From Citromicrobium sp. JLT1363 (GTDB lineage: Bacteria; Pseudomonadota; Alphaproteobacteria; Sphingomonadales; Sphingomonadaceae), in the NCBI RefSeq assembly GCF_000186705.1, contig NZ_AEUE01000001.1, positions 248,001-312,000 of the forward strand: a DNA stretch of 64,000 bases, written 5' to 3'. Shown here piece after piece: positions 20,470 to 47,312 of this stretch. Each line of letters begins with the position of its first letter. Position 1 is the first letter of the stretch. A program made the position numbers and the translations under genes. Below the pieces are notes generated by a model that saw nothing but the letters and a program-made list of their open reading frames with translations, did no database searches and was not told where the DNA came from.

Positions 20470-20489
20470 AGTTGAACCGGATTTCAACT
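20470..20489. promoter_or_regulatory. Inverted repeat between hydrolase and TetR gene (candidate TetR operator)
   Basis: AGTTGAA (20470-20476) and TTCAACT (20483-20489) form a perfect inverted repeat with a six-base spacer in the divergent promoter region. The position and size fit the autoregulatory operator of the TetR protein encoded at 20532. Confidence 0.6.
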
Positions 20490-20531
20490 TGGATCGTTGT
20501 GCAAGCGGCCACGGGCGGTTACGCAAGGGGG

Positions 20532-21221
20532 ATGAGCAGGCTGGACGCGCAATCATCGCAATCGCAGAATTCCGATCCGCACGTTTCGGATTCGCATGTT
20601 TCGGATTCGCACGAGGGGGAAAAGCAGCCCCGGACCGAGCGTGGACGGCGGACCATGCGCAAACTGATCGATGCGGCAGAGGTCGAGTTTGCGGAGAACG
20701 GGTTTCACCAGGCGTCCATCGTGGGCATCACCCGCCGCGCGGGCGTGGCGCTGGGCAGTTTCTACACCTACTTCGACACCAAGGAGGCGATCTTCCGCGC
20801 ACTGGTGCGCGACCTTGGGCAGCAGGTGAAGACGACCGCACGCGAGGCGATCAGCACCGAGACCAAGGCGATGGAAATAGAGCGTGCCGCGCTCGCCGCG
20901 TTCCTGCGCTTCGCCCGCGAGAACAAGGAAATCTATCGCATCATCGATGAATCCGAATTCATCGACCCCGCCATCTATCGCGATCACTACGAAACGACGG
21001 CGAAGCGCATTTTCGAACGGCTGGAACGGGGCATGGCAAGCGGCGAGCTGCGCGACGACCTGTCGGAAGTGCACGCCTGGGCCATCATGGGAATGAACGT
21101 GTTCCTGGGCCTCAAGTTCTCCCTGTGGAGCGAGACCGACCGGAGCGACGAGGTGGCCGCCGCCGCCAACCTGCTGATGCGCGAAGGGATCGCGGGGCCC
21201 GCTTCGAAAGACCCGGAATGA
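20532..21221 (+). CDS. TetR/AcrR family transcriptional regulator
   Basis: 229 residues. A Ser/Asp/His-rich N-terminal tail of about 30 residues, with the repeated unit SDSHV, precedes a TetR DNA-binding domain (TMRKLIDAAEVEFAENGFHQASIVGITRRAGVALGSFYTYFDTKEAIF). A helical ligand-binding domain follows. The short direct repeat in the DNA (15 bases, 20581-20610) produces the tail repeat. Start ATG 20532 follows AAGGGGG. Divergent from the alpha/beta hydrolase-TonB receptor pair, with an inverted repeat in between, so it probably represses that pair. Confidence 0.9.
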   Translation: MSRLDAQSSQSQNSDPHVSDSHVSDSHEGEKQPRTERGRRTMRKLIDAAEVEFAENGFHQASIVGITRRAGVALGSFYTYFDTKEAIFRALVRDLGQQVKTTAREAISTETKAMEIERAALAAFLRFARENKEIYRIIDESEFIDPAIYRDHYETTAKRIFERLERGMASGELRDDLSEVHAWAIMGMNVFLGLKFSLWSETDRSDEVAAAANLLMREGIAGPASKDPE

Positions 21222-21304: not shown

Positions 21305-22888
21305 TCAGCCCCGCCAGTACCGGCGGAATTCGCTGCGCGGATCGCTTTCCACCCGCAGATCCTCGTCGAAGATCATCGTCGTGCGCTCGGGCGGGGAGTA
21401 GGGCTTCCACTCGGGCACATGTTCGTTGTTCGGGTCGCCGTTGGCCGCGAAGGCCGCCCAGCTCGATGCGATGGCCTTCGCCAGCCTGTTGGCCGCCGCG
21501 CTCGATCCGTTGAGCGCGCCGCGCGTGTTGTAGAGGCTGGGCGCGACATCGATCCCGTGCACCGCGCCGAAGCGGCCATCGGCTGCCGGGCTGGGTTCGG
21601 TCCACAGATAGGTCCATACGTTGGCGCCCGGCTGCTTCGCCTTGAGTTCGGCCTGCGCGAAGGCACCCTTGCGGAAGGTCTGATCGGAATCGAGCCGTGC
21701 GGCGAGGATGAAGGGCTTCGCGTCCGGGTCTTCCGCGCGATAGGCGGCGACGGCCTCCTCCGCCCTGTCGCCCACCCGCTCGCGCGCGAACTCCACCAGA
21801 CCGGCCTCGTCCATCGAGAAATCGCCCATCCGGTACGACCGCTCGTCGAGGACGGAGGACACGATCATCGGCACGTGGGACGACACATCGGGCGCGTCCG
21901 GCGCCCAGGGGTGGCGGGGCAGGGCGATGCCGTCGACCACGGGGGCGAAGGACCGGGGCGCCTCGCCCCGCGCGCGGTCCGCCGCTTCCAGCTTGGCCTG
22001 CGTCTCGAGCAGCGTGGTCCAGGGCACCTCCTGCAGCTTGCGCACATCGCCCGGCGCGATCTCCAGCGCGTCCATCAGGCGTTTTGCCGTGGCGCTGGCC
22101 ATTTCGGGCGGCATCATGCGCAGGGCCGATCCGCTCATCACGCCCGCGCGGTGGAACAGGCCCTTGCCGCCGGGCATCGCCATCAGCACGCTGGTCTTCG
22201 CGCCGCCGCCCGACTGGCCGTAGACCAGCACCCGGTCCGGATCGCCGCCGAATTGCGCCACATTCTCCCGCACCCAGCCCAGCGCCGCGACGATGTCCTG
22301 CATCCCCACCGTGCCCGATGTGGTGAAGTCTTCCCCGCCGAATTCCGCCAGATGGAGGAAGCCGAACGCGCCCAGCCGATGATTGATCGCAATCACCACG
22401 CTGTCGGAAAAGCGCGCCATCGCCTCGCCATCCATGCCCACCGAATTGCCAGAGCCGGAATAGAACCCGCCGCCGTGGAGCACGACGATCACCGGCTTCT
22501 TCGCGTTGGCGTCCACATCGGGCGACCACAGGTTGAGCGAGAGATTGTCCTCCCCCATCCCCGAAGGATTGCGATCGACCATGATCAGGTCGGCATAGGT
22601 ATGGCGCCGGTCGCCGGGGATCTGCGGGGCCACATCGGTCCAGTGCAGCGCGTCGCGCACGCCCGCCCATGGCTCCACCGGCTGCGGCGGCATGAAGCGA
22701 TTCGCGCCCGAGGTATCCGCCGCGTAGCTGATCCCGCGAAACACCGCGACGCCGCCCGAGTGCAAGCCGCGAAGCTTGCCCTGAGCGGTCTCGACCACCG
22801 GGAACATGGGGGAGGCCAGCGCAGGCCGCGCCATCGCCGCTGCGCCGAGCGCCAGCGCGCCGCCGAGTGTCTGCCGCCGTGTCATCAT
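21305..22888 (-). CDS. Type-B carboxylesterase with twin-arginine signal
   Basis: 527 residues. The N-terminus has TRRQTLGG (R4-R5) and a hydrophobic stretch ending in RPALA, a Tat-type signal, so the enzyme should be exported folded to the periplasm. The catalytic layout follows the carboxylesterase family: FRGISYA, LSLNLWSP, oxyanion loop VIVVLHGGGFYSGSG, nucleophile elbow GQSGGGA (S226, with Q in place of the usual E), and a His region in GAVHGIDVAPSLYN. It hydrolyses carboxylic esters; the substrate is unknown. Divergent from the Tat-type DapA-like gene at 23066, with the shared TGACA-N4-AACCAAT motif in between. Confidence 0.9.
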   Translation of the reverse strand: MMTRRQTLGGALALGAAAMARPALASPMFPVVETAQGKLRGLHSGGVAVFRGISYAADTSGANRFMPPQPVEPWAGVRDALHWTDVAPQIPGDRRHTYADLIMVDRNPSGMGEDNLSLNLWSPDVDANAKKPVIVVLHGGGFYSGSGNSVGMDGEAMARFSDSVVIAINHRLGAFGFLHLAEFGGEDFTTSGTVGMQDIVAALGWVRENVAQFGGDPDRVLVYGQSGGGAKTSVLMAMPGGKGLFHRAGVMSGSALRMMPPEMASATAKRLMDALEIAPGDVRKLQEVPWTTLLETQAKLEAADRARGEAPRSFAPVVDGIALPRHPWAPDAPDVSSHVPMIVSSVLDERSYRMGDFSMDEAGLVEFARERVGDRAEEAVAAYRAEDPDAKPFILAARLDSDQTFRKGAFAQAELKAKQPGANVWTYLWTEPSPAADGRFGAVHGIDVAPSLYNTRGALNGSSAAANRLAKAIASSWAAFAANGDPNNEHVPEWKPYSPPERTTMIFDEDLRVESDPRSEFRRYWRG

Positions 22889-22914
22889 CCCGATTCTCCC
22901 TTGCCTGTTTGCAC

Positions 22915-22930
22915 TGACACTAGAACCAAT
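22915..22930. promoter_or_regulatory. Shared motif TGACA-N4-AACCAAT, copy 1
   Basis: TGACA (22915-22919), four bases, AACCAAT (22924-22930), in the divergent region between the carboxylesterase and the DapA-like gene. The same words with identical spacing recur at 28792 and 31665. Here it extends into CCAATTGG, a perfect 8-base palindrome. Confidence 0.6.
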
Positions 22931-23065
22931 TGGAGTTGCGTGTTAAGTCCTTTTTCGTAAACAGGGTATGCCAGCGACGTCCCGCGTATGTGGGCGAAAG
23001 GTTTTGGTTCAAATGCCGGGTTCACCGCCAGAGTGTCGGCTGGGCCCGTGGGGAGAGGCGGACAT

Positions 23066-24265
23066 TTGCATCCTGTGCGGATCTCGCGGCGGAGCGCGCT
23101 GGCAGGCGCGGCGGCAATGATGGCGGCGCCTGCCGTCCAGGCGCTGGCCGGTCCGGGCGGTCGCCTGGCGCCGGCGGCCAGCTCGCCTCAGCGCCAATGG
23201 GCGGCATCGCACCTGCGCGGTTTGATGAACCTCTTCCTCCCGAGCTTCCGCGAGGATGGCCGCACGCTGGACGAGGAGGCGATCCGCCACGACGTTCGCC
23301 ATGCCATCGCGCAAGGCTTCTCCGGCACGATGCCGATGATCAACTGGACGCTGCCCGGCGATCCGCGCTGGGCGCAGTTCCACCGCATCGTGATCGACGA
23401 GGCGGGCGATGCGCTTCCCGTCCATGGCATCCTGGCGAGCGGCAAGGTCGAAACCGACCTAGCGATGCTACGTGCGCTGGAAGACATGGGCGTGCAGCTG
23501 GTGCTGCTCGCCTCGACCTATCCGGCAGAGAGCAGCGCGGAGCAGTTGCACGACCTGATGGCGGCGCGGATCGCGGCAACATCGCTGCCGGTGATGCTCT
23601 ATGCGGCGACCGGGCGGCGCGCCTTTCCCGCGCTCGGCCCCGCAGGCCAGCCGCTGGACGTGTATGACCGGATCGCAGACATGGACAATGTCGTCGCGGT
23701 CAAGATCTCGCAGCCCGTCTCGCTCACCTCGACCATGCAGCTGTGCCAGGAGCTGGGCGATCGGCTGTCCATGGGCCCGGTCAATCTCGATTTCCTGCCG
23801 CTGCTCTCGCGCCATTTCCGCATCGACTGGAGCGGGCAATGGAATGCCGAGGCGGTACAGACGCCTGCACGGCAGATCGGCAACCGCCTGCTCGCCGCCA
23901 GCGCGGCGGGGGACACCGCGAAGCTCGATGCGCTGGCCCGCGACATAGAGCCGGTGCTGTCGCACTTCTTCGCCGTGCAGGCACCTGTGATCCGCGCGGG
24001 TGCGCACCCGTGGCAGCATAATCGCTATTACCAGTGGCTGGGCGGCGGCAACGGTGGCCTGCTGCCGTGCGACTCGCACGCTCCCGAGGGCGCAATCCCC
24101 GTGCTGGATGCCAAGGCGCGCGCCGCGATGCGCGCGGCCTTCCGTGCTTCGGGGCTGGAGCCGACCGACGCGCCCGAAGAGCAATTCGTGGTGGGCCGCG
24201 CAGCCTGGGCGCGCGGTGTGCGCGCAGGCGACCTGGCCGATCTGCCATATTATTCAGAAGACTAG
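23066..24265 (+). CDS. DapA-family (dihydrodipicolinate synthase-like) protein with twin-arginine signal
   Basis: 399 residues from a TTG start that has GGGGAGAGG eight bases upstream; the open frame continues further upstream without features. The N-terminus HPVRISRRSALAGAAAMMAAPAVQALAG is a Tat signal (R8-R9). The body is a class I aldolase-like barrel with PVMLYAATGRRAF (Y179) and NVVAVKISQPV (K213), matching the Tyr and Schiff-base Lys of DapA/NAL enzymes, while the usual GTTGE loop is replaced by SGTMPMINW. Export of a DapA-type aldolase or lyase is unusual. It is followed 20 bases later by two carboxylesterases on the same strand, probably one operon. Confidence 0.8.
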   Translation: MHPVRISRRSALAGAAAMMAAPAVQALAGPGGRLAPAASSPQRQWAASHLRGLMNLFLPSFREDGRTLDEEAIRHDVRHAIAQGFSGTMPMINWTLPGDPRWAQFHRIVIDEAGDALPVHGILASGKVETDLAMLRALEDMGVQLVLLASTYPAESSAEQLHDLMAARIAATSLPVMLYAATGRRAFPALGPAGQPLDVYDRIADMDNVVAVKISQPVSLTSTMQLCQELGDRLSMGPVNLDFLPLLSRHFRIDWSGQWNAEAVQTPARQIGNRLLAASAAGDTAKLDALARDIEPVLSHFFAVQAPVIRAGAHPWQHNRYYQWLGGGNGGLLPCDSHAPEGAIPVLDAKARAAMRAAFRASGLEPTDAPEEQFVVGRAAWARGVRAGDLADLPYYSED

Positions 24266-24285
24266 AACGAGAGGGACGAGGGAAA

Positions 24286-25911
24286 ATGACCATCCGCACA
24301 TTCTGGGCCGGTCTGGCCACAGCCGCCGCGCTGGGGCTGACCGCTTGCACGACACCCGGGGCGCAGGCGCCGCTGGCGCAGGCCGATGGCGCTCCGGTCC
24401 TCGACACCCGCTACGGCCCCGTGTCCGGGACACGCGAAGGCGAATCGAACTCGGTCAACGTCTTCCGCGGCGTGCGCTATGCCGCCTCGACCGAAGGCCG
24501 CCGGTTCCAGCTGGCAGCCGATCCCCAAAGCTGGACCGAAACGCGCCCCGCGACCGAATTCGGCAGCGAATGTCCGCAGCGGCCCATGGGTGAGGTGCCG
24601 GTCTTCGAATCCTGGGCCAACACGGTCGGCACCAGCGAGGATTGCCTGTTCCTCAACGTCTGGACGCGTGGCCTTGGCGACGGGAAGAAGCGCCCGATCA
24701 TGGTCTGGCTGCACGGCGGCGGCTATGTGACCGGCTCGGGATCGAGCAACGGGTATGACGGTTCGCGGCTGGCGGAACGCGGCGATGTGGTGGTCGTCAC
24801 GCTCAACCACCGACTCAACGCGCTCGGTTATTCCTACCTCGCCGACCTGACCGACGATCCGAAATATGCCGACAGCGGCAACCTGGGCAGTCTCGATATC
24901 GTCAAGGCGCTCGAATGGGTGCGCGACCATGCGGAAGAAATCGGCGGCGATCCCGACAACGTGACCATCTTCGGCGAATCCGGCGGCGCGGCTAAGGTCT
25001 CCACGCTAATGGCGATGGAGGATGCGCGCGGCCTGTTCGACCGCGCCATCGCGCAGTCGGGCTCCATGTCGCTCGCAGGCTTCACCCCACGTGTGGCCAC
25101 CCCGCTGGCGAAGAACCTGTTGGAAACCGCAGGCGTCTCCAGCGTGGAAGAGCTAGCCGCAATGCCGATCGACGATTTCGTCACCGCGATGATGAAATCG
25201 CGCACGAGGGGCGCCTTCTATCGCCCGGTCGTCGATGGCCGGTCGATCACGCGCCAGCCCTACACGCCCGACGCCAACCCGGTTTCCGCCGACATCCCTT
25301 TGCTGGTGGGGACCAACAACAACGAGATGCGGCTGCAGGGCGGGCTGGGGAGCCCGGAGAACTTTTCGCTGACATGGGATCAGCTGCCCGCGAAGCTGAA
25401 GGCGTTCACGGGCGATGCCGATGTGGCAGAAGTGATCGCGGGCATGCGCGCGGCGCATCCGGACTACGACGCCAGCGACGTGTTCTTCCAGGTGGCGACC
25501 TTTCGCAATTATCGCGGCACCGCGCTGCTGCAGGCCGAACGCAAGAGCGCGCAGAGTGCGCCGGTCTACATGTACCGGCTCGACTGGAAGACTCCTGTGG
25601 AGGGCGGTCGGCTGGAAACGCCGCACGCGCTCGATATCGCGTTCGTGTTCGACAATGTGGCCCGCTCGACCAGCTTTACCGGGCCCGAGACGGCGGAGAC
25701 GCAGCGCATGGCCGACCTGATGGCCGATGCCTGGATCGCCTTTGCGCGCAGCGGCAACCCGAACACGCCCGCGCTGCCGCAATGGCCGACCTATGATCCG
25801 CAGAGCCGCGCGACGATGATCTTCGATATCGATCCGCAGGTGGTGAACGATCCCGACGGGGCGGAGCGCGCACTGCTGCAACGCCTGCTGCCCGAGGGCC
25901 GCGGATTGTGA
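24286..25911 (+). CDS. Type-B carboxylesterase lipoprotein
   Basis: 541 residues. Lipoprotein signal with lipobox L-T-A-C (C21), so membrane-anchored at the periplasm. The family motifs are VFRGVRYA, SEDCLFLNVWT, oxyanion loop MVWLHGGGYVTGSGS, and nucleophile elbow GESGGAAK with S232. A histidine sits in ETPHALDIAFVFDN, and the WIAFARSGNPN C-terminal motif is present. GAGGGAAA precedes the ATG. It overlaps the following esterase by four bases (GTGA), so the two are co-translated. Substrate unknown; sequence most like the esterase at 37914. Confidence 0.92.
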   Translation: MTIRTFWAGLATAAALGLTACTTPGAQAPLAQADGAPVLDTRYGPVSGTREGESNSVNVFRGVRYAASTEGRRFQLAADPQSWTETRPATEFGSECPQRPMGEVPVFESWANTVGTSEDCLFLNVWTRGLGDGKKRPIMVWLHGGGYVTGSGSSNGYDGSRLAERGDVVVVTLNHRLNALGYSYLADLTDDPKYADSGNLGSLDIVKALEWVRDHAEEIGGDPDNVTIFGESGGAAKVSTLMAMEDARGLFDRAIAQSGSMSLAGFTPRVATPLAKNLLETAGVSSVEELAAMPIDDFVTAMMKSRTRGAFYRPVVDGRSITRQPYTPDANPVSADIPLLVGTNNNEMRLQGGLGSPENFSLTWDQLPAKLKAFTGDADVAEVIAGMRAAHPDYDASDVFFQVATFRNYRGTALLQAERKSAQSAPVYMYRLDWKTPVEGGRLETPHALDIAFVFDNVARSTSFTGPETAETQRMADLMADAWIAFARSGNPNTPALPQWPTYDPQSRATMIFDIDPQVVNDPDGAERALLQRLLPEGRGL

Positions 25912-27329
25912 GCCTGCGCAAGGGAGGGGGGCTCGCACTCGCCGGGGCGCTTGCGCTCTCCGCTTGCGCGAGCATGCCTGCGCCCGGCTCTTCGGGCCTC
26001 GTCGAAACCACCTCCGGGACCTTGCAGGGTTCGCCGGAAGGCAATGCGATCGTCTTCAGGGGCGTGCCCTACGCTCAGCCTCCGGTTGGCGAGCTGCGCT
26101 GGCGCGCGCCGGAGCCGACCCGTTGGGATGGTGTGAGGGCGGCGGACAGCTTCGGCCCCGCCTGTCTTCAGCCAGTGAACGAGGATGGCTCGCCCAATTT
26201 CGGCGGCTATGCCGGGCCGGTTTCCGAAGACTGCCTGACGCTCAACATCTGGGCTCCGCAAGGTGCGACCAATGCGCCGGTGATGGTCTGGCTGTTCGGC
26301 GGCGGCGGCGTTGTCGGCGCGGGCAGCCTGCCGACCTATCACGGCGATGCCTTTGCGCGCGACGGCGTGATGCTGGTGAGCATCAATTACCGGCTCGGCG
26401 GATTGGGCGGCTGGGCGCACCCCGCGCTCACTGCGGAGAAATCCGGCGGACCGAACGCCAACTATGCGCTGATGGACGCCATCGCGGCGCTACGCTGGGT
26501 GAAGGACAATGCGGCGCGGTTCGGCGGCGATCCCGACAACGTCACGCTGTTCGGCGAAAGTGCGGGGGCGACGATGACCGCCAATCTGGTGACGTCTCCG
26601 CTGGCGGAGGGTCTGTTCGAGAAGGCGATCTTCCAGTCGACCGGATCGCTCCCGACGCCGGGCACCCCGCTGGCGAAAGCCGAAGCGCGGGGCGAGGCTT
26701 CGGCCAGGGCGCTTGGCCTGCCGAACGCGACGGCGCAGCAGCTGCGCGCGCTGCCCGCGGAACGTTTCCTGTCCGACCGCGCTGCGGCTTTCGGCCTGCG
26801 CACCATCATCGATGGGGTCGTGAAGCCGGCCTCCATCATGGAGACCTTCGAGGCGGGGCAGGAGAATGATGTCCTGCTGATGCTCGGCACCAATTCGGAC
26901 GAAGGGCGGCTGGTCGGCACGCAGCGCGTCGCCGATCTGGCAGAAGATGGCGCGCCGGTGTTCCAGTATTTCTTCGACTACGTTCCCGAAGCCCTGCGAG
27001 AGCGCGATCCCAACGGTGCGCCCCATGCGGGCGAGCTGCCCTTCGTGTTCGATACGCTGGGCACCTATCAGCTGCTGCCGCAGGGCCCGACCGGTGAGGA
27101 CCAGCGCGTGGCATCGCTGGTGCATTCATGCTGGGTCGCTTTTGTAAAAGCTGACACCGGCGCCACGACCCTCGATTGCGGCGGCGATTTTACATGGCCC
27201 GCCCGCAGCGAGGCGAACGACCACGCGGTCGCATGGCTTGCGGCAGAACCGCGCATGGTGGCTGCCGAAACGCTACGCTCTCCGCCGAACGGGGCGGAGC
27301 CGGGGCGCACCTGGCGGGACGAAGACTAG
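25908..27329 (+). CDS. Type-B carboxylesterase lipoprotein with altered oxyanion loop
   Basis: 473 residues, shorter than its neighbours. Lipobox L-S-A-C with C20. Motifs: VFRGVPYAQPPVGELRWRAP, SEDCLTLNIWAP, nucleophile elbow GESAGAT (S218), and the GELPFVFDTLG region with no obvious catalytic His in the usual 'H..D..FVF' form. The oxyanion loop reads VMVWLFGGGGVVG: the first residue of the usual HGG(G) is Phe instead of His. The enzyme may be active with altered geometry or specialised. GTG start overlaps the previous esterase stop. Final gene of the DapA-like/esterase operon; a terminator hairpin follows at 27336. Confidence 0.88.
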   Translation: MSLRKGGGLALAGALALSACASMPAPGSSGLVETTSGTLQGSPEGNAIVFRGVPYAQPPVGELRWRAPEPTRWDGVRAADSFGPACLQPVNEDGSPNFGGYAGPVSEDCLTLNIWAPQGATNAPVMVWLFGGGGVVGAGSLPTYHGDAFARDGVMLVSINYRLGGLGGWAHPALTAEKSGGPNANYALMDAIAALRWVKDNAARFGGDPDNVTLFGESAGATMTANLVTSPLAEGLFEKAIFQSTGSLPTPGTPLAKAEARGEASARALGLPNATAQQLRALPAERFLSDRAAAFGLRTIIDGVVKPASIMETFEAGQENDVLLMLGTNSDEGRLVGTQRVADLAEDGAPVFQYFFDYVPEALRERDPNGAPHAGELPFVFDTLGTYQLLPQGPTGEDQRVASLVHSCWVAFVKADTGATTLDCGGDFTWPARSEANDHAVAWLAAEPRMVAAETLRSPPNGAEPGRTWRDED

Positions 27330-27335
27330 GGCGGG

Positions 27336-27362
27336 GCGCCGCTAGGCTGCGGCGCTTCTTTC
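27336..27362. terminator. Hairpin with T-rich tail after the esterase operon
   Basis: GCGCCGC (27336-27342) pairs with GCGGCGC (27349-27355), followed by TTCTTTC. It overlaps the stop of the convergent VOC gene. Confidence 0.6.
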
Positions 27363-27743
27363 GCCCATCTGCATGATTTCGATTTCGTGCCCTTCGGGCG
27401 TGTGCACGAAGGCGATCCGCGCCGGTCCGAATTGCACGGTCTCGCCATTCTGCTTCGCCCCCGCCACCAGCGCGCGGGCAAGATCGGCGTCGAGATCGCG
27501 CGAGATCATGCCCACCGGGCCGTAGCCATTTCCGGTCTCGATCGTGCGGCCGTCCTTCCAGTGGAACAGCACGATCGTCGTCGATCCCTTGCTGCCGGTC
27601 ATCATGTGTTCGCGGAAAGTCGGCGTGTCGACCGTATCGGCATGGGTCAGGCCGAAGCCTTTTTCGAAGAAGGTGGTGGCCGCGTCGATATCCGCGACGG
27701 TCAGTTTGACGAAGGTGAACAGGGCTGGGGTCGTCTCGTTCAT
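27342..27743 (-). CDS. VOC superfamily (glyoxalase/dioxygenase-like) protein
   Basis: 133 residues. The single-domain layout 'FTFVKLTVADIDAATTFFEKGFGL...' to 'ARIAFVHTPEGHEIEIMQ' is that of the vicinal-oxygen-chelate fold. The C-terminal HTPEGHEIEI carries the metal-ligand-type glutamate. Substrate class cannot be told; relatives include glyoxalase I, ring-cleavage dioxygenases and isomerases. No signal peptide. It lies 52 bases downstream of the TesB-like gene on the same strand and is probably in its operon. Confidence 0.85.
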   Translation of the reverse strand: MNETTPALFTFVKLTVADIDAATTFFEKGFGLTHADTVDTPTFREHMMTGSKGSTTIVLFHWKDGRTIETGNGYGPVGMISRDLDADLARALVAGAKQNGETVQFGPARIAFVHTPEGHEIEIMQMGERSAAA

Positions 27744-27795
27744 GCTATGTCCTTTCGGGCGGCCGGACGGCTCGCGCTGTGATGTATGCGGGCCG

Positions 27796-28680
27796 TCACG
27801 AAGCCTTGTCCTGCAACAGTCTGTCCCGCGCCTCGCCTCGGGGACGCATCAGGCTCTCCTGTGCGACGCTGGCGACCATCCGGCCCTGCAGATCGTAGAA
27901 GTGGCCGCGATTGAGGCCGCGGGCATGGCCCGCCCAGGGGCTCTCGGTAGCGTAGAGATGCCAGGCATCGAAATCGGGCGTTTCGTGAAACCAGATGGCG
28001 TGGTCCAGCGATGCGGCCTGCACCTGGCTGCTCCCCGGCCGGACGCCATGCGGAAGCAGGGCATTGCGCAGGAACATCATGTCGGATGCGTAGGCGAGCA
28101 GCGCGCGCTGCATCAGCGGGTCCGCACCCGACGGCTCGCGCATCCGCATCCAGACCGCGGTCTGCGGCTTGCTGGCCCCCGCGCCGAACAGCGAATCGGG
28201 TTCCAGCGGCACGATTTCTATCGGGCGCTTCTGCAGGCGATCGACAAGCGGGGCGTCGTTCGCCCGCGCACTTTTCGATCGCCAGTCTTCCAGCGCCGAT
28301 AGCGCCGCATCAATGTCCAGATCGAACGGGGATGGGGTCGCATGCTCGTGGCCTGCTTCCTCGATATGGAAGGATGCCGTCATCGAGAAGATCAGCGTGT
28401 CGCCCTGCATGCCGTCGATCCGGCGGACCGCGAAGCTGCGGCCTTCGGAAAGCGTCGTCACGGTGTAGCGCACCCGATCCGTACTGGCCCCGGCTTTCAG
28501 GAAATGCGCATGCAGCGAATTGGGCAGGCGGCCGCCGTCTTCCGCCGCGCAGCCTGCCATCAGCGCCTGCGCGATGGCCTGTCCGCCGAACAGGCGCGGG
28601 CCCATCGCCGGGCCGGCGGGGCCTTCGAAAACATGCTCCCCCATCGCTTCGACCGCGAGAATTTCCGGTAGCTGGACGAT
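27796..28680 (-). CDS. Acyl-CoA thioesterase II (TesB-like)
   Basis: About 294 residues of double hot-dog fold. The family features are EGPAGPAMGPRLFGGQAIAQALMAG, LPNSLHAHFLKAG, EGRSFAVRRIDGMQG, IFSMTASFH, ASLDHAIWFHE and WHLYATESPWAGHARGLNRGHFYDLQGRMVASVAQE, ending the second domain. It hydrolyses acyl-CoA esters in the cytoplasm. The start is uncertain. The best ribosome site (GGGGGAGAG) is placed for an ATC codon at 28680; in-frame normal codons are only a TTG at 28806, a GTG at 28797, or an internal ATG at 28644 that would remove about 12 family residues. Divergent from the amidohydrolase at 28847. Confidence 0.88.
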   Translation of the reverse strand: MVQLPEILAVEAMGEHVFEGPAGPAMGPRLFGGQAIAQALMAGCAAEDGGRLPNSLHAHFLKAGASTDRVRYTVTTLSEGRSFAVRRIDGMQGDTLIFSMTASFHIEEAGHEHATPSPFDLDIDAALSALEDWRSKSARANDAPLVDRLQKRPIEIVPLEPDSLFGAGASKPQTAVWMRMREPSGADPLMQRALLAYASDMMFLRNALLPHGVRPGSSQVQAASLDHAIWFHETPDFDAWHLYATESPWAGHARGLNRGHFYDLQGRMVASVAQESLMRPRGEARDRLLQDKAS

Positions 28681-28790
28681 GTTCTCTCTCCCCCGTTTCC
28701 ATACCCGATATTCAGCGTGAGCGAGCCTGACAAGCTCTCCGGTGTGGATTGCATCGCAATTTCCGCGAGAAAATGCGGATTTGTTTCGTA

Positions 28791-28819
28791 TTGACACCCT
28801 AACCAATAGCGTGAGATAA
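28791..28819 (+). promoter_or_regulatory. Sigma-70-type promoter for the amidohydrolase, containing motif copy 2
   Basis: TTGACA at 28791-28796, a 17-base spacer, and AGATAA at 28814-28819, about 28 bases before the amidohydrolase ATG. The -35 box and spacer contain TGACA-N4-AACCAAT (28792-28807), the motif shared with 22915 and 31665. A regulator bound there would block or guide RNA polymerase. Confidence 0.65.
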
Positions 28820-28846
28820 AGCAGGGCGATAATTCAGGAGATGCCG

Positions 28847-30025
28847 ATGACTTATACGAAGGGCCGGATCGTCAACGACGCCGATTCGCACACGATGGAA
28901 ACGCAGGACTGGCTCGCCCCCTATCTGGAGGGCGAGTACAAGGAGATGTATTCGCAGGTATATTCCAAGCGCGACGGCGGCGACCGGATCGTGAAGATGA
29001 TCGATGCCGCGAAGGCGCGTAAGAGCGATCCCGAAGCGCGCGCCAAGGCGCTGGAAAACCCCATCGAGGGGGCCAAGGGCTGGCTGGGCTACGGCGGGTT
29101 CGACAAGGACGAGCGGGTCGAGGCGCTCGACTGGCTGGGCTTCGAGCGGCAGCTGGTGTTCCCGACCTTCGGTCTGGGGGCGATCACCAAGGCGGAAAGC
29201 GATGACCAGCGCTATGCCGCCGCGACTGCGCTCAACAAGGCGCAGCAGGATTTCTGCGATGCTGACGGCCGCATGGACTGCGTGGCATTCACTCCGCTGG
29301 ACGATCCCGAGCGCGGCCTGGCCGAGGCGAAGCGCGCCGTCGAAGCGGGCGCGAAGGCGGTGATGTTCAGCGCGGGCCCGGCAGGCGACAAGAGCCCCGG
29401 CCACCCCGATCTCGATCCGTTCTGGCAGTATCTGGAGGACAACAAGATCCCCTTCATGCTGCATATCGGCCCGGGCACGAAGACGCAGCCCGCCAAGTTC
29501 AAGAACAACGGGCGCGAGCGCGCGGCGGACCTGCACGGTGGCGGCGAGAACCTGCGGTTCCCCGACTTCCTGTGCCTGTGGTTCGCCCCCCAGGAATTCC
29601 TCACCGCGATGGTCTATGATGGCGTGTTCCAGCGCTTTCCCGATCTGCGCGGCGGCGTGATCGAAAGCGGGGCGGGCTGGGTTCCCGAATTCCTGCGCAT
29701 GCTCGACCATGGCTGGTATTCGTTCAACAAGACCGACCAGTACCTGAAAGACATGGACAAGCTGCCGTCCGAATACATCAGGCGGGCGGTGCGCTTCACG
29801 CCGTTCCCGAACGAGGATGTGGGCCGCATGATCCGCGATTCCGCGCCGGAGCTGTACCTCTTCTCGAGCGATTATCCGCACCCCGAAGGGACCAAGGATC
29901 CCTACGGCAAGTTCGAGGCTTCGCTGGAAGGCTTCGACGAGGAGGTGAAGGACATGTTCTACCGCACCAACTACGATCACATGATGTACCGCAAAAGCGA
30001 AGCAATGGCCGAAGCGGCCGAGTAA
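28847..30025 (+). CDS. Amidohydrolase_2 family metal-dependent hydrolase/decarboxylase
   Basis: 392 residues from the second of two close ATGs; the first ATG (28841) directly abuts the AGGAG site, while 28847 has proper spacing. The N-terminal IVNDADSHTMET matches the D-x-H metal motif of the amidohydrolase_2 family. PFMLHIGPG supplies a histidine and YLFSSDYPHPEGT the C-terminal aspartate. The family includes decarboxylases and hydrolases of ring compounds. RIVKMIDAAKARKSDPEARAKALENP forms a long helical insert. Likely cytoplasmic. It carries its own promoter with the shared motif and is followed by a strong terminator, so it is a single-gene unit. Confidence 0.88.
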   Translation: MTYTKGRIVNDADSHTMETQDWLAPYLEGEYKEMYSQVYSKRDGGDRIVKMIDAAKARKSDPEARAKALENPIEGAKGWLGYGGFDKDERVEALDWLGFERQLVFPTFGLGAITKAESDDQRYAAATALNKAQQDFCDADGRMDCVAFTPLDDPERGLAEAKRAVEAGAKAVMFSAGPAGDKSPGHPDLDPFWQYLEDNKIPFMLHIGPGTKTQPAKFKNNGRERAADLHGGGENLRFPDFLCLWFAPQEFLTAMVYDGVFQRFPDLRGGVIESGAGWVPEFLRMLDHGWYSFNKTDQYLKDMDKLPSEYIRRAVRFTPFPNEDVGRMIRDSAPELYLFSSDYPHPEGTKDPYGKFEASLEGFDEEVKDMFYRTNYDHMMYRKSEAMAEAAE

Positions 30026-30044
30026 CGCTCCTCTCGAGCAGACT

Positions 30045-30080
30045 GGGGGAGGCATCCGTTGGGTGCCTCCCCCTTTTTTT
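30045..30080. terminator. Strong rho-independent terminator
   Basis: A perfect 13-pair stem, GGGGGAGGCATCC (30045-30057) with the complementary arm at 30061-30073, loop GTT, then seven T's. It ends the amidohydrolase transcript. Confidence 0.93.
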
Positions 30081-30089
30081 CCTCTAAGG

Positions 30090-31619
30090 TCAGGCGTTTT
30101 CGAAACGCATCAGCGCCACGATCGGATCGACACTGCCCGCATCGTCCAGATCGTCGCACAGCGCGATCAGGCGGTTCGCCGCCGCAACCCCGAGTACGGG
30201 CTCGATCAGTTCGTGCGCCTTTTCCTCCACCTCGGCCTTCGCCAGCGGGTGCGTGGGATAGCCCGGCACATAGGGCACGTAGCGTTCTTCCTGCGTGCCG
30301 TCCTTGCGGGTGAGCGTGACGCGCGCGCTTTCGGTGCGGTCCTCGCCTTCGCCCATTTCCTGCGCCTCGTCCCGCACCACGGTGACCTTGCGCGCGAAGT
30401 CGCGGGCAGCCGCGTCGTTCTCCTGCCGGTCGAGCGATTGCGCGTCGACGAAGTCGAGCCTTCCGTCGAGCATGATGATCGCGGCCAGATAGGGGATGTT
30501 GAGCGCGGGCATGTTCGCCCGTTCGAAAGTGGCCGCCTCGCCCGGCATGGCGACCACGATCTTCGCCACCTCTTGAGGCGACACGGTTCTACGCAGGTCC
30601 AGCAGGGCGCGCACGGCCGGCTGCGTCGGGCCACCCACCGGGTAGCGCTTCATCGCTGCCAGCGAGAGTTCGTACTCTTCGTTCAGTCCTTCGACGAGCG
30701 AGGCGTGGTTGGCCCCTTCGCCCTGGAAGGCGCGCCAGCGGAACCAGCCATTCTCATTGTCGAAGCTGGCCGGAACGCCGGTGAAGCCGATCTTCGCCAT
30801 GCGTGCCGCCTGCATTCCGTTGCGCGCGCCCATGCCACCGAAGACGAACGCCTTCTCCACGTGCCGCACGTCGAGCAGCCACTGCCACGATCCCGAGGCC
30901 TGCTGCGCGCAATAGGCCAGCATGTGATCGACCTCATCCGTCGTCAGGTCCATCAACGGCGCTGCCGCTGCCGCTGCTCCGAAAGTGGGAGCAATGCCGT
31001 GATTGGCGAGGCCGGCGAGGTAGAGATTGCGCGTGCCGATCGCCTTGGGGAGCCTGCCAGCGATTTCGTACCCTGCAACCACCGCGCCCACGAGGTCCGC
31101 CCCGCTGCGCTGGTTCAGGCGCGCAGTCTCGATGGCGGTGGGAACGATGGCAGGGCCGGGCTGGACATAGGCCGACGGGATGAAATCGTTGATCTCGGCT
31201 GCGTGCGCCGTCATCCCCGAGGCGAAGACCGCATCCACCGGCGAGGCTGTCTGCCGCGAACCCAGGATCGGGCTGGTGCCCTGCGGCGACATGGCCTGCG
31301 CATAGCGGCGGCCCAGCTGCGACGCCTCGAGCGAGTGGCACGCGACGATGGAGGCCAGCGTGTCGAGAATGTGGAGACGCGCGCGTTCCCTGATCTGCGC
31401 CGGTATGCCGTGGTCGCACGCGCCCGCAATATAGCCCGTCAATGCAGGCGTAATCTCGCGCCAGCCCGCTCCGTCTGCCGCAGATTCCGGACCCTGAGAA
31501 GCTTGTCTTGCAGCCAGCGCGGGGGCCGTGACCGCCAGCGCGCTCGCGACCGATCCCGCCTTGATAAGCCCGCGCCGTGTCATGCCTCCGCCAGAACTCC
31601 TGCCAATCCCATTGCTCAC
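30090..31619 (-). CDS. MmgE/PrpD family protein with twin-arginine signal
   Basis: 509 residues from a GTG with AAGGAG seven bases upstream; ATG 31583 is the alternative. The N-terminus has TRRGLIKAGSVASALAVTAPALA, a textbook Tat signal (R15-R16). The body is MmgE/PrpD-like: ALTGYIAG, RARLHILDTLASIVACHS, the AHAAEINDF stretch, VPTAIETA, GYEIAGRLPKAIG, a HGIAPTFGAAAAAA helix and the YPVGGPTQPAVRALLDLR segment. PrpD acts on 2-methylcitrate in the cytosol; an exported paralogue implies a different, periplasmic substrate. Divergent from a TetR gene, with the shared motif between them. Confidence 0.85.
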   Translation of the reverse strand: MSNGIGRSSGGGMTRRGLIKAGSVASALAVTAPALAARQASQGPESAADGAGWREITPALTGYIAGACDHGIPAQIRERARLHILDTLASIVACHSLEASQLGRRYAQAMSPQGTSPILGSRQTASPVDAVFASGMTAHAAEINDFIPSAYVQPGPAIVPTAIETARLNQRSGADLVGAVVAGYEIAGRLPKAIGTRNLYLAGLANHGIAPTFGAAAAAAPLMDLTTDEVDHMLAYCAQQASGSWQWLLDVRHVEKAFVFGGMGARNGMQAARMAKIGFTGVPASFDNENGWFRWRAFQGEGANHASLVEGLNEEYELSLAAMKRYPVGGPTQPAVRALLDLRRTVSPQEVAKIVVAMPGEAATFERANMPALNIPYLAAIIMLDGRLDFVDAQSLDRQENDAAARDFARKVTVVRDEAQEMGEGEDRTESARVTLTRKDGTQEERYVPYVPGYPTHPLAKAEVEEKAHELIEPVLGVAAANRLIALCDDLDDAGSVDPIVALMRFENA

Positions 31620-31664
31620 CCACACTCTCCTTCTTTTCGCGTGGAAAGGTGCCGGGCTGCCTCC

Positions 31665-31680
31665 TGACAGTCAAACCAAT
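31665..31680. promoter_or_regulatory. Shared motif TGACA-N4-AACCAAT, copy 3
   Basis: TGACA (31665-31669), four bases, AACCAAT (31674-31680) followed by AG as in copy 2. It lies in the divergent region between the MmgE/PrpD-like gene and the TetR gene at 31750. The TetR protein is a natural candidate for the binding protein. Confidence 0.6.
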
Positions 31681-31749
31681 AGTTATAAAAGGGTGCGGAC
31701 CCAGGCGTACCACCTTGCCAATGCACCGGGGTGGCTGCACAGCGGGAGG

Positions 31750-32340
31750 ATGGAAGCCGTGGCGGCAGAAGGAGATCGCGAGCAGGAAGTGCTCGCAGCA
31801 GCGGAAGCGCTGATCCGGGAAGGCCGGACGCTGAATCTCTCGCTCGGAGATATTGCCGAGAGGGTCGGTGTCAGCCGAAGCCTCCTCTACGTCTATTTCG
31901 ACGGCATCCCGGCGATGATCGATGCATTGTTCAACCGGCACCTGGACCGGATGGAACGGACCGTCCTTCCCGATCCGGCTGAGGGGTCATCAGACTTCCA
32001 CGACCGCGCGCTGGAGGCGTTCGATGCCTATCTCGATTACCTGATCGACAATGGCCCGATCCTGCAGCTGATCCTGCGAGAGCGGCATCAGGACAGCCCG
32101 CTCGGTCCGGCAAGCCGCCAGCGGTTTCGCAGCCTGCTCCGGCGCATCGCGCGCGAAACCTGCCAGGCACTGGACCTCGCGCCGCGCGAGGCATTCGTCC
32201 TGCTGGAACTGATTGCGGGCATCCCCGAATCGCTCGCGCCCCTCGTGCGTCTCGATCAGATCGACCGGGCAACTGCCCACGCAACCTGCCGCCGCCTTGT
32301 CGCGGCCGCGCTGAATGCGTTCAAGGTGAGGGCTGGCTAG
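31750..32340 (+). CDS. TetR/AcrR family transcriptional regulator
   Basis: 196 residues with N-terminal helix-turn-helix (QEVLAAAEALIREGRTLNLSLGDIAERVGVSRSLLYVYFDGIPAMIDALF) and a helical C-terminal sensor domain. GGGAGG directly abuts the ATG at 31750; the in-frame GTG at 31759 has better spacing and may be the true start. The gene is divergent from the MmgE/PrpD-like gene, and its last four bases overlap the stop of the convergent regulator at 32337. It is a candidate regulator of the TGACA-N4-AACCAAT set. Confidence 0.88.
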   Translation: MEAVAAEGDREQEVLAAAEALIREGRTLNLSLGDIAERVGVSRSLLYVYFDGIPAMIDALFNRHLDRMERTVLPDPAEGSSDFHDRALEAFDAYLDYLIDNGPILQLILRERHQDSPLGPASRQRFRSLLRRIARETCQALDLAPREAFVLLELIAGIPESLAPLVRLDQIDRATAHATCRRLVAAALNAFKVRAG

Positions 32341-33188
32341 TCTGCGTTTCCTGCGGCGACGCTTTCGTCGCTGAACGCTCCGGCCATTACCACGCCAAGG
32401 CAGATTTCCTCGACCATCGGGAAGGGCGCGCGCCTGCTTGCCGCGATGCCCCCGGCCTTCAGCGCCACTGCCGTGAGCGCCGCGGTCGAGGCGCGCGCGC
32501 TCTGCAGATCCATCCTTCCCTGGTCGACCAGTCTCTGAAGGATCGGTTCGCGAGCAGCATCTCTCAACGCTGCAAGTTCGGGCTTCAGGGCATCGCGCAC
32601 TTCGGGCGTACGGAGCAGCATCTGCAGCAGCGGGCCGCGCTGTGCTGCCTCGTGCAAATAGCCGATGGTCGAAAGCATCACGCGCGTCTGCCGATTGGTA
32701 CCACGCGCGATCCGCCTGCGGCGCTGCGATTCCTGGGTCGCGATCTCGCGGCGGGCGAGGGCCAGCAGCAGTTCCGTGCGGCCGCCGAAGCAATTGTGGA
32801 CCTGCGTTTCGCTGATGCCGGCCTGGCGCGCCACTTCGCGCATGGTCACGGCAGACAGGCCATCCGAAATCGCGATTGCGGTGGCGGTGTCCATCAGGTG
32901 CCGCCGCCTCTCCTCCGCCGACATGCGCGTGCGCGATCCGGGCGACTGGCGGGCCTGGCGCCGCCCCAGCGCGAAGGTTTCGCTCAGGCCAAGGGGGGCG
33001 GGCGGAAGCTCGGGCTGCGGTGTGCGGCTGGCCGGATTGCGCGTCCAGTGCGATCGGGACGGACGGGGAATCGCCAGCCGGTCGCAGATCTTGGCGAGGC
33101 CATTGCCCGTCAGGCCATACCGTGCCGCGACGGTGCCCATCGGTTCGGACCAGATATGGTCGAAGAGTTCTGCCCGGGTCAGCTGCAT
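32337..33188 (-). CDS. Two-module regulator: extra N-terminal helix-turn-helix domain plus TetR domain
   Basis: 283 residues. Residues about 1-50 (LTRAELFDHIWSEPMGTVAARYGLTGNGLAKICDRLAIPRPSRSHW) match a small DNA-binding-like module often seen alone or at the start of longer proteins ('L.R.EL...VWSEP...A..YG.S...LAK.C....IP.P..G.W'). A linker and basic region follow. From about 88 comes a TetR domain (SAEERRRHLMDTATAIAISDGLSAVTMREVARQAGISETQVHNCFGGRTELLLAL) with a sensor domain. Combining both modules is uncommon. Target unknown; divergent from the esterase gene at 33350. Confidence 0.82.
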   Translation of the reverse strand: MQLTRAELFDHIWSEPMGTVAARYGLTGNGLAKICDRLAIPRPSRSHWTRNPASRTPQPELPPAPLGLSETFALGRRQARQSPGSRTRMSAEERRRHLMDTATAIAISDGLSAVTMREVARQAGISETQVHNCFGGRTELLLALARREIATQESQRRRRIARGTNRQTRVMLSTIGYLHEAAQRGPLLQMLLRTPEVRDALKPELAALRDAAREPILQRLVDQGRMDLQSARASTAALTAVALKAGGIAASRRAPFPMVEEICLGVVMAGAFSDESVAAGNAD

Positions 33189-33349
33189 CGCGCCAAGCTA
33201 TTCAAAAGCGCCCGTTCCTGTCCAGCACATTGCCAAGAGAGGCGCTGTAATTAATCCGTCTCGAAATCGTACCCGATATTCGAATGTCTATGTTGTTAGA
33301 TCGTAAACGGTGCGCTATGACAGCAGGTCAGAGGGGTTGGGAGAGAGGA

Positions 33350-34765
33350 ATGAGGCAGCTTATTCTGTCGTTGATGGCCGCATCGGCGGGTTTGATCGCC
33401 CAGCCTTGCATGGCGCAGATGCCCGATCCGATCGACGGGGTCGAGGTTCAGACGCAGGCCGGAACACTTCTGGGATCGCGTGAAGACGGCGTACTGGTTT
33501 TTCGAGGCGTTCCCTATGCCGCTCCGCCGGTGGGCGACAATCGCTGGCGCCCTCCGCAGCCGGTCGAACCGTGGAAAGGCGTCCGCGCCGCGACCGCGCA
33601 CGAGGCCCCGTGCACGCAGCCGGTCGATACCGACACGATGGTGGCCAATTTCGGCGGCGTGAACGGCGCGCAATCGGAAGATTGCCTCTATCTCACGATC
33701 ACCGCGCCCGATAATGCGCAGGGCGCGCCGGTGCTGGTCTGGTTTCATGGAGGCGCGTTCTTCCTGGGGGCGGGCAGCCTCGGCTCCTACGATGGCACCG
33801 CCAACGCGAAGCGGGGCGTCGTCACGGTCAGCGTCAATTACCGCCTCGGCGCATTGGCCAACTTCGTCCATCCCGCGCTCGATGCGCAAAACCCGCAGGA
33901 ACCCAAGGGCAATTACGCGCTGCAGGACAGTGTCGCCGTGCTCGAATGGGTGCGCGACAATATCGCCGCCTTCGGGGGCGATCCCGAACAGGTGACCATT
34001 GCAGGACAATCGGCAGGCGGTGGCATCGTCACCAACCTGCTTGCGATCCCGTCCGCGAAGGGCCTGTTCGACAAGGCGATCGTCCAGTCCGGCAGCCTGC
34101 TGCTGCCCGATCGCCCCAGGGCACAGGCGCAGGGCATGGCGATAGAGGCGCTGGAGACCATCGGCATCGGGGCGGACGCGACGGCAGACGACCTGCGCGG
34201 CATCTCCGCGCAGACCTTCGCTGCGTCCGAGCCGCTGCGCGCCGGCTTCTTCTTCACGCCGGACGACAGCTTCAAGCCGACCTCCACGATTGCGGCACTG
34301 CGGGCAGGCGAAGAGATCGACGTGCCGCTGCTGGTCGGCTCCAATCAGGGCGAGGGCGGCTTTCGCGGCGCACGCACTTTCGCAAGTCTTGCCGGAGACG
34401 AGGGCGCCCCGGCGTTCCTCTACCGCTTCGATCACACGCCCGCCTTCCGGGAGGGCGAGTGGACCAAGGGGCCGATCCACTCGGCGGAACTGATGTTCAC
34501 CTTCGATTCGATCGACCAATCGAGCTGGGGCGGCGAGCGTGCCGACGCGGCGGATCGCGCTCTGGCGAGCACGGTCAACGAATGCTGGGTCGCCTTCGTG
34601 AAGATGGCGCCCGGGGCCCGCAGTTTCGAATGCGGCGCAGGGTTCGAATGGCAGCCCTATCGAGAGGGCGGCGATGTCGCGCTGATCGAGACAGGCGGGC
34701 TGCGAATGGCACCGGCCGACGGATTGCCGGACGGCCCCGAACAGGAGGAGGCCGCAAGCCCCTAG
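33350..34765 (+). CDS. Type-B carboxylesterase, secreted
   Basis: 471 residues. A Sec signal peptide (MRQLILSLMAASAGLIAQPCMA) is cut near residue 22. Motifs: VFRGVPYAAPPVGDNRWRPP, SEDCLYLTITAP, oxyanion loop VLVWFHGGAFFLGAGS, nucleophile elbow GQSAGGG (S221), and a HSAELMFTFDS histidine region, then NECWVAFVK. It should act in the periplasm on ester substrates. GAGAGAGG precedes the ATG. Only 53 bases separate it from the large TonB receptor, which suggests co-transcription and coupling of uptake with ester cleavage. Divergent from the two-module regulator. Confidence 0.9.
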   Translation: MRQLILSLMAASAGLIAQPCMAQMPDPIDGVEVQTQAGTLLGSREDGVLVFRGVPYAAPPVGDNRWRPPQPVEPWKGVRAATAHEAPCTQPVDTDTMVANFGGVNGAQSEDCLYLTITAPDNAQGAPVLVWFHGGAFFLGAGSLGSYDGTANAKRGVVTVSVNYRLGALANFVHPALDAQNPQEPKGNYALQDSVAVLEWVRDNIAAFGGDPEQVTIAGQSAGGGIVTNLLAIPSAKGLFDKAIVQSGSLLLPDRPRAQAQGMAIEALETIGIGADATADDLRGISAQTFAASEPLRAGFFFTPDDSFKPTSTIAALRAGEEIDVPLLVGSNQGEGGFRGARTFASLAGDEGAPAFLYRFDHTPAFREGEWTKGPIHSAELMFTFDSIDQSSWGGERADAADRALASTVNECWVAFVKMAPGARSFECGAGFEWQPYREGGDVALIETGGLRMAPADGLPDGPEQEEAASP

Positions 34766-46015: not shown

Positions 46016-46079
46016 AGCCTCTACCGCACGCCGGATCGATCGGGTGCGCGGATGGCGGATAACGATGCTGGGGGAGCGG

Positions 46080-47312
46080 ATGGCGAAGAAGCCCGACGTC
46101 ACGAAGAAGTTCGGCGAGAAGCGCAGCGCCATCGTCCACGCCGCGTCCGTGCTGATCAACGATACGGGCGTGCAGGCCACTACGCTAACCAAGGTCGCCC
46201 GCGCGATCGGGCTGAACGCGACCAGCGTCACCTATTACTTCCCCCGCAAGGACCAGCTGATCGTCTCGGTCTATGCCGAAACCATCGCGCTGCTGAAGTC
46301 GATGGCGCAGGAAGCGCTGGCGGAGGACACCCTCGAGAAGCGTATCGCCAAATACGTGCATCTGCATGTGACGCTGCGCGAACGCATCCGCCGGGGGGAG
46401 CGCGGGCTGATGACCGCGCTGTCCGAAATCCGCTCGCTCGACCAGGATCAGCAGGACGAACTGCTGTTTGCCTATCGCGAGATGGTGAACGAGGTGCGTG
46501 CCTTCTTCGGCGAACCCGCAGATGAAACGCAGCGCGCGCTTTTTTCCGCGCGCGCGCATATCCTGATCGAGGCGATGCTGTGGTGGCCGGTCTGGTCGCG
46601 GCGCTACTCGGTGCTCGATTTTGCCCGGGTCGAAACCAAGATCGTCGACATCCTGTGCTTCGGCATTCCCGTAACGCGCGGCGAATGGAAGCCCCTGCCG
46701 CTGGAAGATGGCGGCTGGCGCACGCACGAAGAGGTCCAGCCCCAGCAGAACGACGAGTTCCTGCGCGCGGCCACGGTCATGATCAACGAACGCGGCTATC
46801 GCGGTGCGTCGGTCAACCGGATTGCCGAAGCGCTCAATGTGACCAAGGGCAGCTTCTACCACCATCACGACGCCAAGGACGATCTGGTGCTGGAGTGCTT
46901 CCAGCGCAGTTATGATCGCCTGTCCAAGGTGCAGATGGCCGGGCGCGACGTAGAGGGATCGTACTGGACGCGCCTGTCGAGCATCCTCAACGAGCTGCTC
47001 GAGCTGCAGTTCTTCGATCCCATGCCACTGCTGCGCACCACCGCGCTGCAGGCGCTCGACAGCGAGCACAAGACGGACGTGGTCATGCGGTCCAACCGCC
47101 TTGCGCGGCGTTTCGCGGGTTTCCTCATCGACGGGTGGGGCGACGGATCGGTGCGCGCGGTCGATCCGCTGGTGGCCAGCCAGATCATCATGTCGACGCT
47201 GAACGGCGCGTACGAGGCGCGCCGCTGGGCCGCCCGGTTCGACGATCCGGAGCGGGCGGTAGAAACCTACCTGTCTGTTCTCAGCGAAGGAATGCTCGCC
47301 GAACGTAGCTGA
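46080..47312 (+). CDS. Tandem TetR regulator (two TetR modules in one protein)
   Basis: 410 residues holding two complete TetR DNA-binding domains. The first is near residues 10-60 (KRSAIVHAASVLINDTGVQATTLTKVARAIGLNATSVTYYFPRKDQL). The second is near 222-270 (NDEFLRAATVMINERGYRGASVNRIAEALNVTKGSFYHHHDAKDDL). Each has its own helical sensor region. A single chain would mimic a TetR dimer with non-identical halves. GGGGGAGCGG places the start at ATG 46080. Downstream of the thiolase/synthetase pair by 64 bases, so it likely regulates fatty-acid-type catabolism genes. Confidence 0.88.
   Translation: MAKKPDVTKKFGEKRSAIVHAASVLINDTGVQATTLTKVARAIGLNATSVTYYFPRKDQLIVSVYAETIALLKSMAQEALAEDTLEKRIAKYVHLHVTLRERIRRGERGLMTALSEIRSLDQDQQDELLFAYREMVNEVRAFFGEPADETQRALFSARAHILIEAMLWWPVWSRRYSVLDFARVETKIVDILCFGIPVTRGEWKPLPLEDGGWRTHEEVQPQQNDEFLRAATVMINERGYRGASVNRIAEALNVTKGSFYHHHDAKDDLVLECFQRSYDRLSKVQMAGRDVEGSYWTRLSSILNELLELQFFDPMPLLRTTALQALDSEHKTDVVMRSNRLARRFAGFLIDGWGDGSVRAVDPLVASQIIMSTLNGAYEARRWAARFDDPERAVETYLSVLSEGMLAERS

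Follow-up and report, generated by a model that had tools for sequence, protein, structure and literature searches.

The 64,000-nucleotide stretch of Citromicrobium sp. JLT1363 analyzed here (positions 248,001 to 312,000 of contig NZ_AEUE01000001.1; called the window below) carries a spaced DNA motif, TGACA-N4-AACCAAT (motif A), in three divergent promoter regions of a catabolic gene cluster. Judged from sequence comparison, motif A is real, conserved, and confined to the cluster; it is most likely the operator for a small local regulon that would comprise about six genes, and the TetR-family regulator TetRa, encoded beside one of the sites, is its likely binder. The initial annotation had proposed that the motif defines a candidate regulon. 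That reading is supported, and neither of the refuting outcomes it named was observed: the genome has no exact match within a gene, and motif A is kept at the orthologous promoters of relatives.

A scan of the window reproduced the three exact sites of the initial annotation at 22915-22930, 28792-28807, and 31665-31680, all on the plus strand, and found no other match when up to two mismatches were allowed. Across the genome (3,117,324 bases in 26 contigs), motif A again has exactly three exact matches, all at the cluster sites and none inside a gene, and the reversed control pattern has no match. Base composition predicts 0.0013 copies in the window and 0.06 in the genome. Three same-strand intergenic copies within 9 kb, against 0.06 expected genome-wide, are therefore not due to chance. 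The earlier claim of improbability thus holds through the genome count and conservation, which are decisive, but recurrence in the window alone is insufficient, because for each gap length 141 to 241 five-gap-seven words recur three or more times when both strands of this GC-rich 64 kb are counted. A window shuffle test gave at least three matches in 14 of 100 shuffles, a figure that counts two-mismatch matches and is no test of three exact ones. The core as first described was retained, and the conserved unit proved longer, at about 19 bp (YTGACA-N4-AACMAATWG), with the words TGACA and AACMAAT centered 10 bp apart. An 18-base form, TGACANNNNAACCAATNG, has 18 genome matches with up to two mismatches, composed of the three sites and 15 dispersed matches with two mismatches each; the control has 6.

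All three sites lie between divergent genes. Site 1 (CTGACACTAGAACCAATTG; 22914-22932, plus strand) is found between the carboxylesterase gene COE1 (21305-22888, minus strand; PF00135), about 25 bp before its start codon, and the rightward gene for a DapA-like protein of the DHDPS family (23117-24265, plus strand; PF00701, matched on 22988-24265). Site 2 (TTGACACCCTAACCAATAG; 28791-28809, plus strand) separates the gene for TesB, a TesB-type acyl-coenzyme A (acyl-CoA) thioesterase (27796-28680, minus strand; PF02551, with TIGR00189 below cut-off), from a gene for an amidohydrolase-superfamily protein (28841-30025, plus strand; PF04909), the conserved start of which is probably at 28847. Site 3 (CTGACAGTCAAACCAATAG; 31664-31682, plus strand) lies between the gene for an MmgE/PrpD-family protein, hereafter MmgE (30090-31625, minus strand; PF03972 and PF19305), and TetRa (31750-32340, plus strand; PF00440, matched on the longer open reading frame [ORF] 31528-32340). 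COE1, the amidohydrolase-superfamily gene, and MmgE are predicted targets via sites 1, 2, and 3, respectively; the DapA-like gene is a possible target via site 1, and TesB is a possible target via site 2. Some of the longest mechanically called ORFs, with GTG or TTG starts, extend across motif A sites, and orthologue-based starts were used instead; once orthologues set the gene starts, the claim that the sites occur only between genes holds for all three. By eye, the MMTRRQTL start of COE1 suggests the label of a twin-arginine translocation (Tat)-type protein. The DapA-like ORF opens at 22988, and its N-terminal part is doubtful.

Conservation was assessed in 17 pooled loci (356,594 bases), composed of the JLT1363 locus and 16 others from eight named genera and further relatives. 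With up to two mismatches, 48 motif A matches were found, and every one of the 48 falls at one of the three orthologous promoters and points the same way; several of the loci are closely related, so these are not 48 independent events. In the same loci, 100 shuffled versions of the consensus gave a mean of 1.8 matches and a maximum of 12. Site 2 is kept in all 17 loci, site 3 in 16 (it is absent in G322), and site 1 in 15, that of JLT1363 included. The exceptions for site 1 are G131, which has no COE1 match within the 20 kb examined, and G322, in which a COE1 relative is rearranged and lacks the site. In ungapped profiles, the fixed columns of motif A average 1.82 to 1.89 bits versus 0.40 to 0.56 bits in the far flanks, and the N4 columns reach 2.00 bits at site 1, 1.83 at site 3, and 0.80 at site 2; because the profiled sites were picked as best matches with up to two mismatches, the fixed columns are biased upwards, and the N4 columns and flanks are unbiased.

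A protein scan of named genomes with MmgE returned 30 loci. TetRa and TetRb, the latter being a second TetR-family regulator (32337-33188, minus strand; PF00440) that is convergent with TetRa, are both present with at least 44% identity in 11 of these, and all 11 carry motif A with up to two mismatches at the three promoters (33 sites). These loci belong to Citromicrobium (two), Erythrobacter (three), and Alteriqipengyuania, Actirhodobacter, Qipengyuania, Blastomonas, Novosphingobium, and Parerythrobacter (one each), which confirms conservation of the motif at orthologous promoters across related genera. The other 19 loci, some of which are cut by contig ends, have no match with up to two mismatches at the corresponding promoters, and five weak matches occur elsewhere in 5 of them. 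Five of these 19 loci (L114, L115, L117, L118, and L128) combine MmgE and a COE1 relative of at least 66% identity with no match to TetRa, TetRb, or the amidohydrolase-superfamily protein, and motif A is absent at those genes. Among 397 sampled genomes of the family, exact TGACANNNNAACCAATNG was found in 20, with 31 matches, 21 of which are in ten cluster-bearing genomes. The single matches in G202, G061, G180, G074, G278, G355, G143, G325, G388, and G170 were treated as chance, since the cluster is missing from the regions that hold them and their spacers differ from those of the three sites; the control over the sample gave 5.

The presence of motif A follows that of TetRa. In the family sample, 13 genomes encode TetRa at 44% identity or more, and every one of them carries motif A at the cluster. 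Within the genus, TetRa is present at 63% identity or more in 7 of 10 genomes, and the same 7 have exact motif A; the other 3 have remote TetR matches only and no exact motif A, although G283, among these 3, encodes a 31% homologue and carries, with two mismatches, the distant form of the motif described below. TetRa and TetRb are the only regulator genes of the window present throughout the conserved core. The TetRa model has a TetR fold with a mean predicted local distance difference test score (pLDDT) of 86.8. In the TetRb model (mean pLDDT, 84.4), helices at residues 5-14, 17-23, and 28-37 precede the TetR part. This extra N-terminal segment (TRAELFDHIWSEPMGTVAARYGLTGNGLAKICDRLAIPRP) is strongly conserved and has no Pfam match over it, and its three modeled helices resemble a helix-turn-helix. 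A further TetR-family gene, TetRc (20472-21221), was seen next to the cluster in 1 of the 11 cluster loci from named genomes (L105, from the genome that also holds L053), with some loci ending before the TetRc position, and was not treated as a candidate for a conserved site.

A distant variant of the motif, TTGACANNNACWCNAATAR, was sought in 10 loci with TetRa or TetRb homologues at 24 to 51% identity. With up to two mismatches, it was found in 7 of the 10 loci (8 matches), a count to be read with the fact that its consensus was partly derived from loci later scanned for it. The matches have no mismatch in G184, none and one in G209, one each in G036 and G302, and two each in G283, L120, and L125. 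Half of the eight precede an amidohydrolase-superfamily gene (G184, G302, G283, and G036), the two in G209 lie near a TonB-type gene and the TetRa gene, and the L120 match is 1.1 kb from TetRa. This evidence is suggestive.

The position of motif A relative to the promoter differs between the sites. At site 2, TTGACA (28791-28796) is a perfect -35 and plausibly serves as the -35 of the amidohydrolase-superfamily gene. The good -35 box and spacer of the initial annotation are thus borne out as to the -35; the -10, GATAAA at 28815-28820, is weak, and a consensus promoter scan listed no sigma-70 promoter within 22800-33400. At site 1, a conserved TTAACA on the minus strand (22941-22946; 1.6 to 2.0 bits at site 1 motif positions 25 to 33) is the proposed -35 of COE1, and an 18-bp spacer would put the COE1 -10 (TAGTGT, 22917-22922) inside motif A. 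By inspection, site 1 has no -10 at normal spacing on the motif's own strand, and at site 3 a distance of 14 bp separates motif A from the closest -10-like word, with none at normal spacing. A -35/-10 pair separated by 16 to 18 bp on the motif A strand is thus possible at site 2 only and was not seen at sites 1 and 3. Since motif A occupies differing promoter positions, these data speak for a protein binding site and not for a core promoter element. The YTGACA with which motif A begins and the perfect -35 at site 2 could fit a -35 with a special spacer or the site of an alternative sigma factor, but that explanation is very unlikely given that motif A at site 1 covers the proposed -10 and spacer of a promoter on the opposite strand and that each genome holds only three copies. 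Coincidence, or three functionless copies of one duplicated promoter, would agree with the many spaced words that recur at least three times in the window. It is contradicted by the genome count, by the sharp edges of conservation, and by the placement of 48 of 48 matches at the orthologous promoters, and we regard it as hardly credible.

If motif A is an operator, its binder has to be chosen among several regulators, and a number of observations weigh against TetRa. TetRb adjoins TetRa in 17 of 17 loci, and with this near-constant pairing co-occurrence cannot separate the two. G322 lacks motif A before TetRa and before COE1 and keeps site 2 only. The distant variant is missing, at up to two mismatches, from 3 of the 10 distant loci (G126 and G099 have three-mismatch matches only, and G321 has none), and over the 397 genomes it is weakly enriched, with 35 matches versus 22 for the reversed control and 4 of the 35 at TetRa loci (G036, G184, and two in G209), so that it rests on location and not on genome-wide enrichment. 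L125, from Phenylobacterium, has TetRb and no TetRa match in the 21 kb examined, and its two-mismatch variant lies 50 bp from an amidohydrolase-superfamily gene in the opposite orientation. Finally, TetR homodimers normally bind palindromes, and motif A has no dyad symmetry beyond chance, with 46% of 500 column shuffles reaching its best score; palindromes noted by eye, CACTA-N7-TAGTG in motif A and another in motif B (see below), were dropped after the column-shuffle test. Several of these points would suit a cluster operator bound by TetRb or by a TetRa-TetRb heterodimer, the two heads of which would match two words one helical turn apart: the constant adjacency, the non-palindromic motif with its words centered 10 bp apart, the additional conserved N-terminal helical segment of TetRb, and L125. 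This explanation is possible but less probable, as site 3 is at TetRa's own promoter, another conserved motif, motif B, marks the TetRb/COE4 region, and G302 has TetRa and a variant motif with no TetRb match, on a contig that extends 1.4 kb beyond TetRa. TetR heterodimers are, moreover, rare. The heterodimer by itself, with one head on TGACA and the other on AACMAAT one helical turn away, is unlikely, and it is the boldest reading to which the non-palindromic motif, the precedent of Mce3R, and the N-terminal segment of TetRb lead. A double-TetR protein of the Mce3R type, TetRd, is also encoded in the window (46044-47312), with two TetR-type stretches. In its favor as the binder, all 13 family genomes that encode TetRa at 44% identity or more also have TetRd, and Mce3R of Mycobacterium tuberculosis binds asymmetric 25-bp operators, according to the available part of PMC11667970. 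TetRd was nonetheless rejected on its distribution and on the absence of the motif near it, which makes this binder highly improbable: it occurs in 86 of the 397 genomes, 13 with the TetRa cluster and most others without exact motif A, and in 30 TetRd loci scanned, each covering the gene and 1.5 kb to either side, neither motif A nor the variant was found with up to two mismatches. It is possible, too, that a regulator encoded elsewhere, or an unknown factor, binds motif A.

Among these readings, we favor motif A as the operator of a local regulon bound by the putative autoregulated repressor TetRa, and we hold this to be fairly probable on sequence grounds. TetRa would bind YTGACA-N4-AACMAATWG between three divergent gene pairs of the cluster that encodes it. 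At COE1, bound TetRa would overlap the spacer and proposed -10, and at the amidohydrolase-superfamily gene it would overlap the -35 together with the spacer, thereby blocking RNA polymerase; binding at site 3 would provide autoregulation. Release would occur once a pathway intermediate, plausibly an acyl-CoA or an ester-derived acid, binds TetRa. We infer each of TetRa as the binder, repression, and the ligand.

A second motif stands beside TetRb. Motif B (TACCCGATATTCGAA; 33270-33284, plus strand) precedes the carboxylesterase gene COE4, and 17 of 17 loci have it with up to two mismatches to TACCNNNTATTCNAA. A variant of motif B (TACCCGATATTCAGC; 28702-28716, plus strand) lies on the TesB side of site 2, with up to two mismatches in 16 of 17 loci and three in the other. 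Like motif A, motif B is not palindromic beyond chance (44% of 500 column shuffles reach its best score). The simplest reading is that TetRa binds motif A and TetRb perhaps binds motif B. A weaker relative of motif B occurs near site 1 (22954-22968, minus strand) in part of the loci. At COE4, motif B is followed by a conserved TTGTTAGATCGTAAA. The start of COE4 in the ORF list, 33284, falls inside motif B, and the conserved block there suggests that the real COE4 start is downstream, near 33317.

Two of the genes beside site 2 have further features. In 16 of 16 loci (28678-28720 in the window and orthologues in 15 others), the conserved N terminus of TesB opens at ATC, ATT, or ATA, preceded by a GGGAG or GGAGG that resembles a Shine-Dalgarno sequence. 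The TesB query was cut at the ATC codon beforehand, so that the match position is not independent evidence. In JLT1363, the apparent start codon is ATC. Four loci (L105, L107, L112, and L133) have no in-frame upstream ATG, GTG, or TTG; in others there is one, for example 4 codons upstream in L113, 7 in L108, and 9 in G322, and in 13 of the 16 loci codon 25 downstream is an ATG. The closest solved sequence to the amidohydrolase-superfamily protein is PtmU3 (E value, 1.7e-19), and matches to DitZ and AibH1H2-type proteins are weaker. The available part of PMC7782822 presents PtmU3 as a non-heme diiron hydroxylase for which CoA-ligated diterpenoids can serve as substrates. Given its closeness to PtmU3, the amidohydrolase-superfamily protein may act as an oxygenase and not as a hydrolase.

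More carboxylesterases, a TonB-dependent receptor, and TetRb are also encoded around the three sites. Farther along are beta-oxidation genes, which include a 3-hydroxyacyl-CoA dehydrogenase/enoyl-CoA hydratase, a thiolase, an AMP-binding enzyme, and acyl-CoA dehydrogenases. The target genes had been described as scattered; they are instead neighbors within one conserved cluster, to which exact motif A is confined, and the genes of the three sites may form one pathway. Motif A turns these esterase, thioesterase, MmgE/PrpD, and amidohydrolase-superfamily genes into a testable regulon with exact predicted operator positions in eight named genera. The predicted operators could be used as a reporter for the inducer and hence for the substrate. 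A non-palindromic site beside a conserved TetR pair also lends itself to testing how asymmetric DNA is recognized by TetR proteins. If the heterodimer were true, sphingomonads would use for accessory catabolic clusters a repressor that parallels the fused double-TetR protein Mce3R but is encoded by two genes.

We know of no operator with the sequence of motif A. Among the papers listed by literature searches on the cluster genes and TetR regulons, none describes the cluster or motif A, and absence from print is not claimed; a literal-string search had neither 16-base site among the matches listed, and a search on asymmetric TetR operators returned no paper. In local TetR regulons, a lipid or acyl-CoA catabolic cluster contains or adjoins the TetR gene, and the operator recurs in several promoters, that of the TetR gene included. 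The arrangement described here resembles those of KstR, BkaR, Bacillus FadR, and FasR in having a TetR gene in or beside a catabolic cluster and a site at several promoters, that of TetRa among them. The TetRa model matches FasR, BkaR, and Bacillus subtilis FadR among 50 listed structures, with 14 to 22% identity among those listed, and the TetRb sequence matches KstR. The present system differs from these in its low sequence identity and in the non-palindromic motif A. The regulons of LiuQ, FadP, PsrA, and RutR in Proteobacteria share the comparative-genomics evidence and the regulator family but, as far as the available part of PMC5343134 goes, concern fatty acid, amino acid, and pyrimidine pathways, whereas the cluster here is an accessory one of limited lineage. 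Mce3R is similar in that an asymmetric operator was found by comparison of orthologous intergenic regions and in that its regulon is lipid related, again according to the portion of PMC11667970 available; by the same partial account, it has two TetR parts in one chain, whereas the best candidates here are two separate genes. The Mce3R-like TetRd, unlike the regulator of an Mce3R-type regulon, has a gene distribution that does not track motif A. As a predicted local regulon, the cluster is a new instance of a familiar type of system, and its asymmetric site is unusual.

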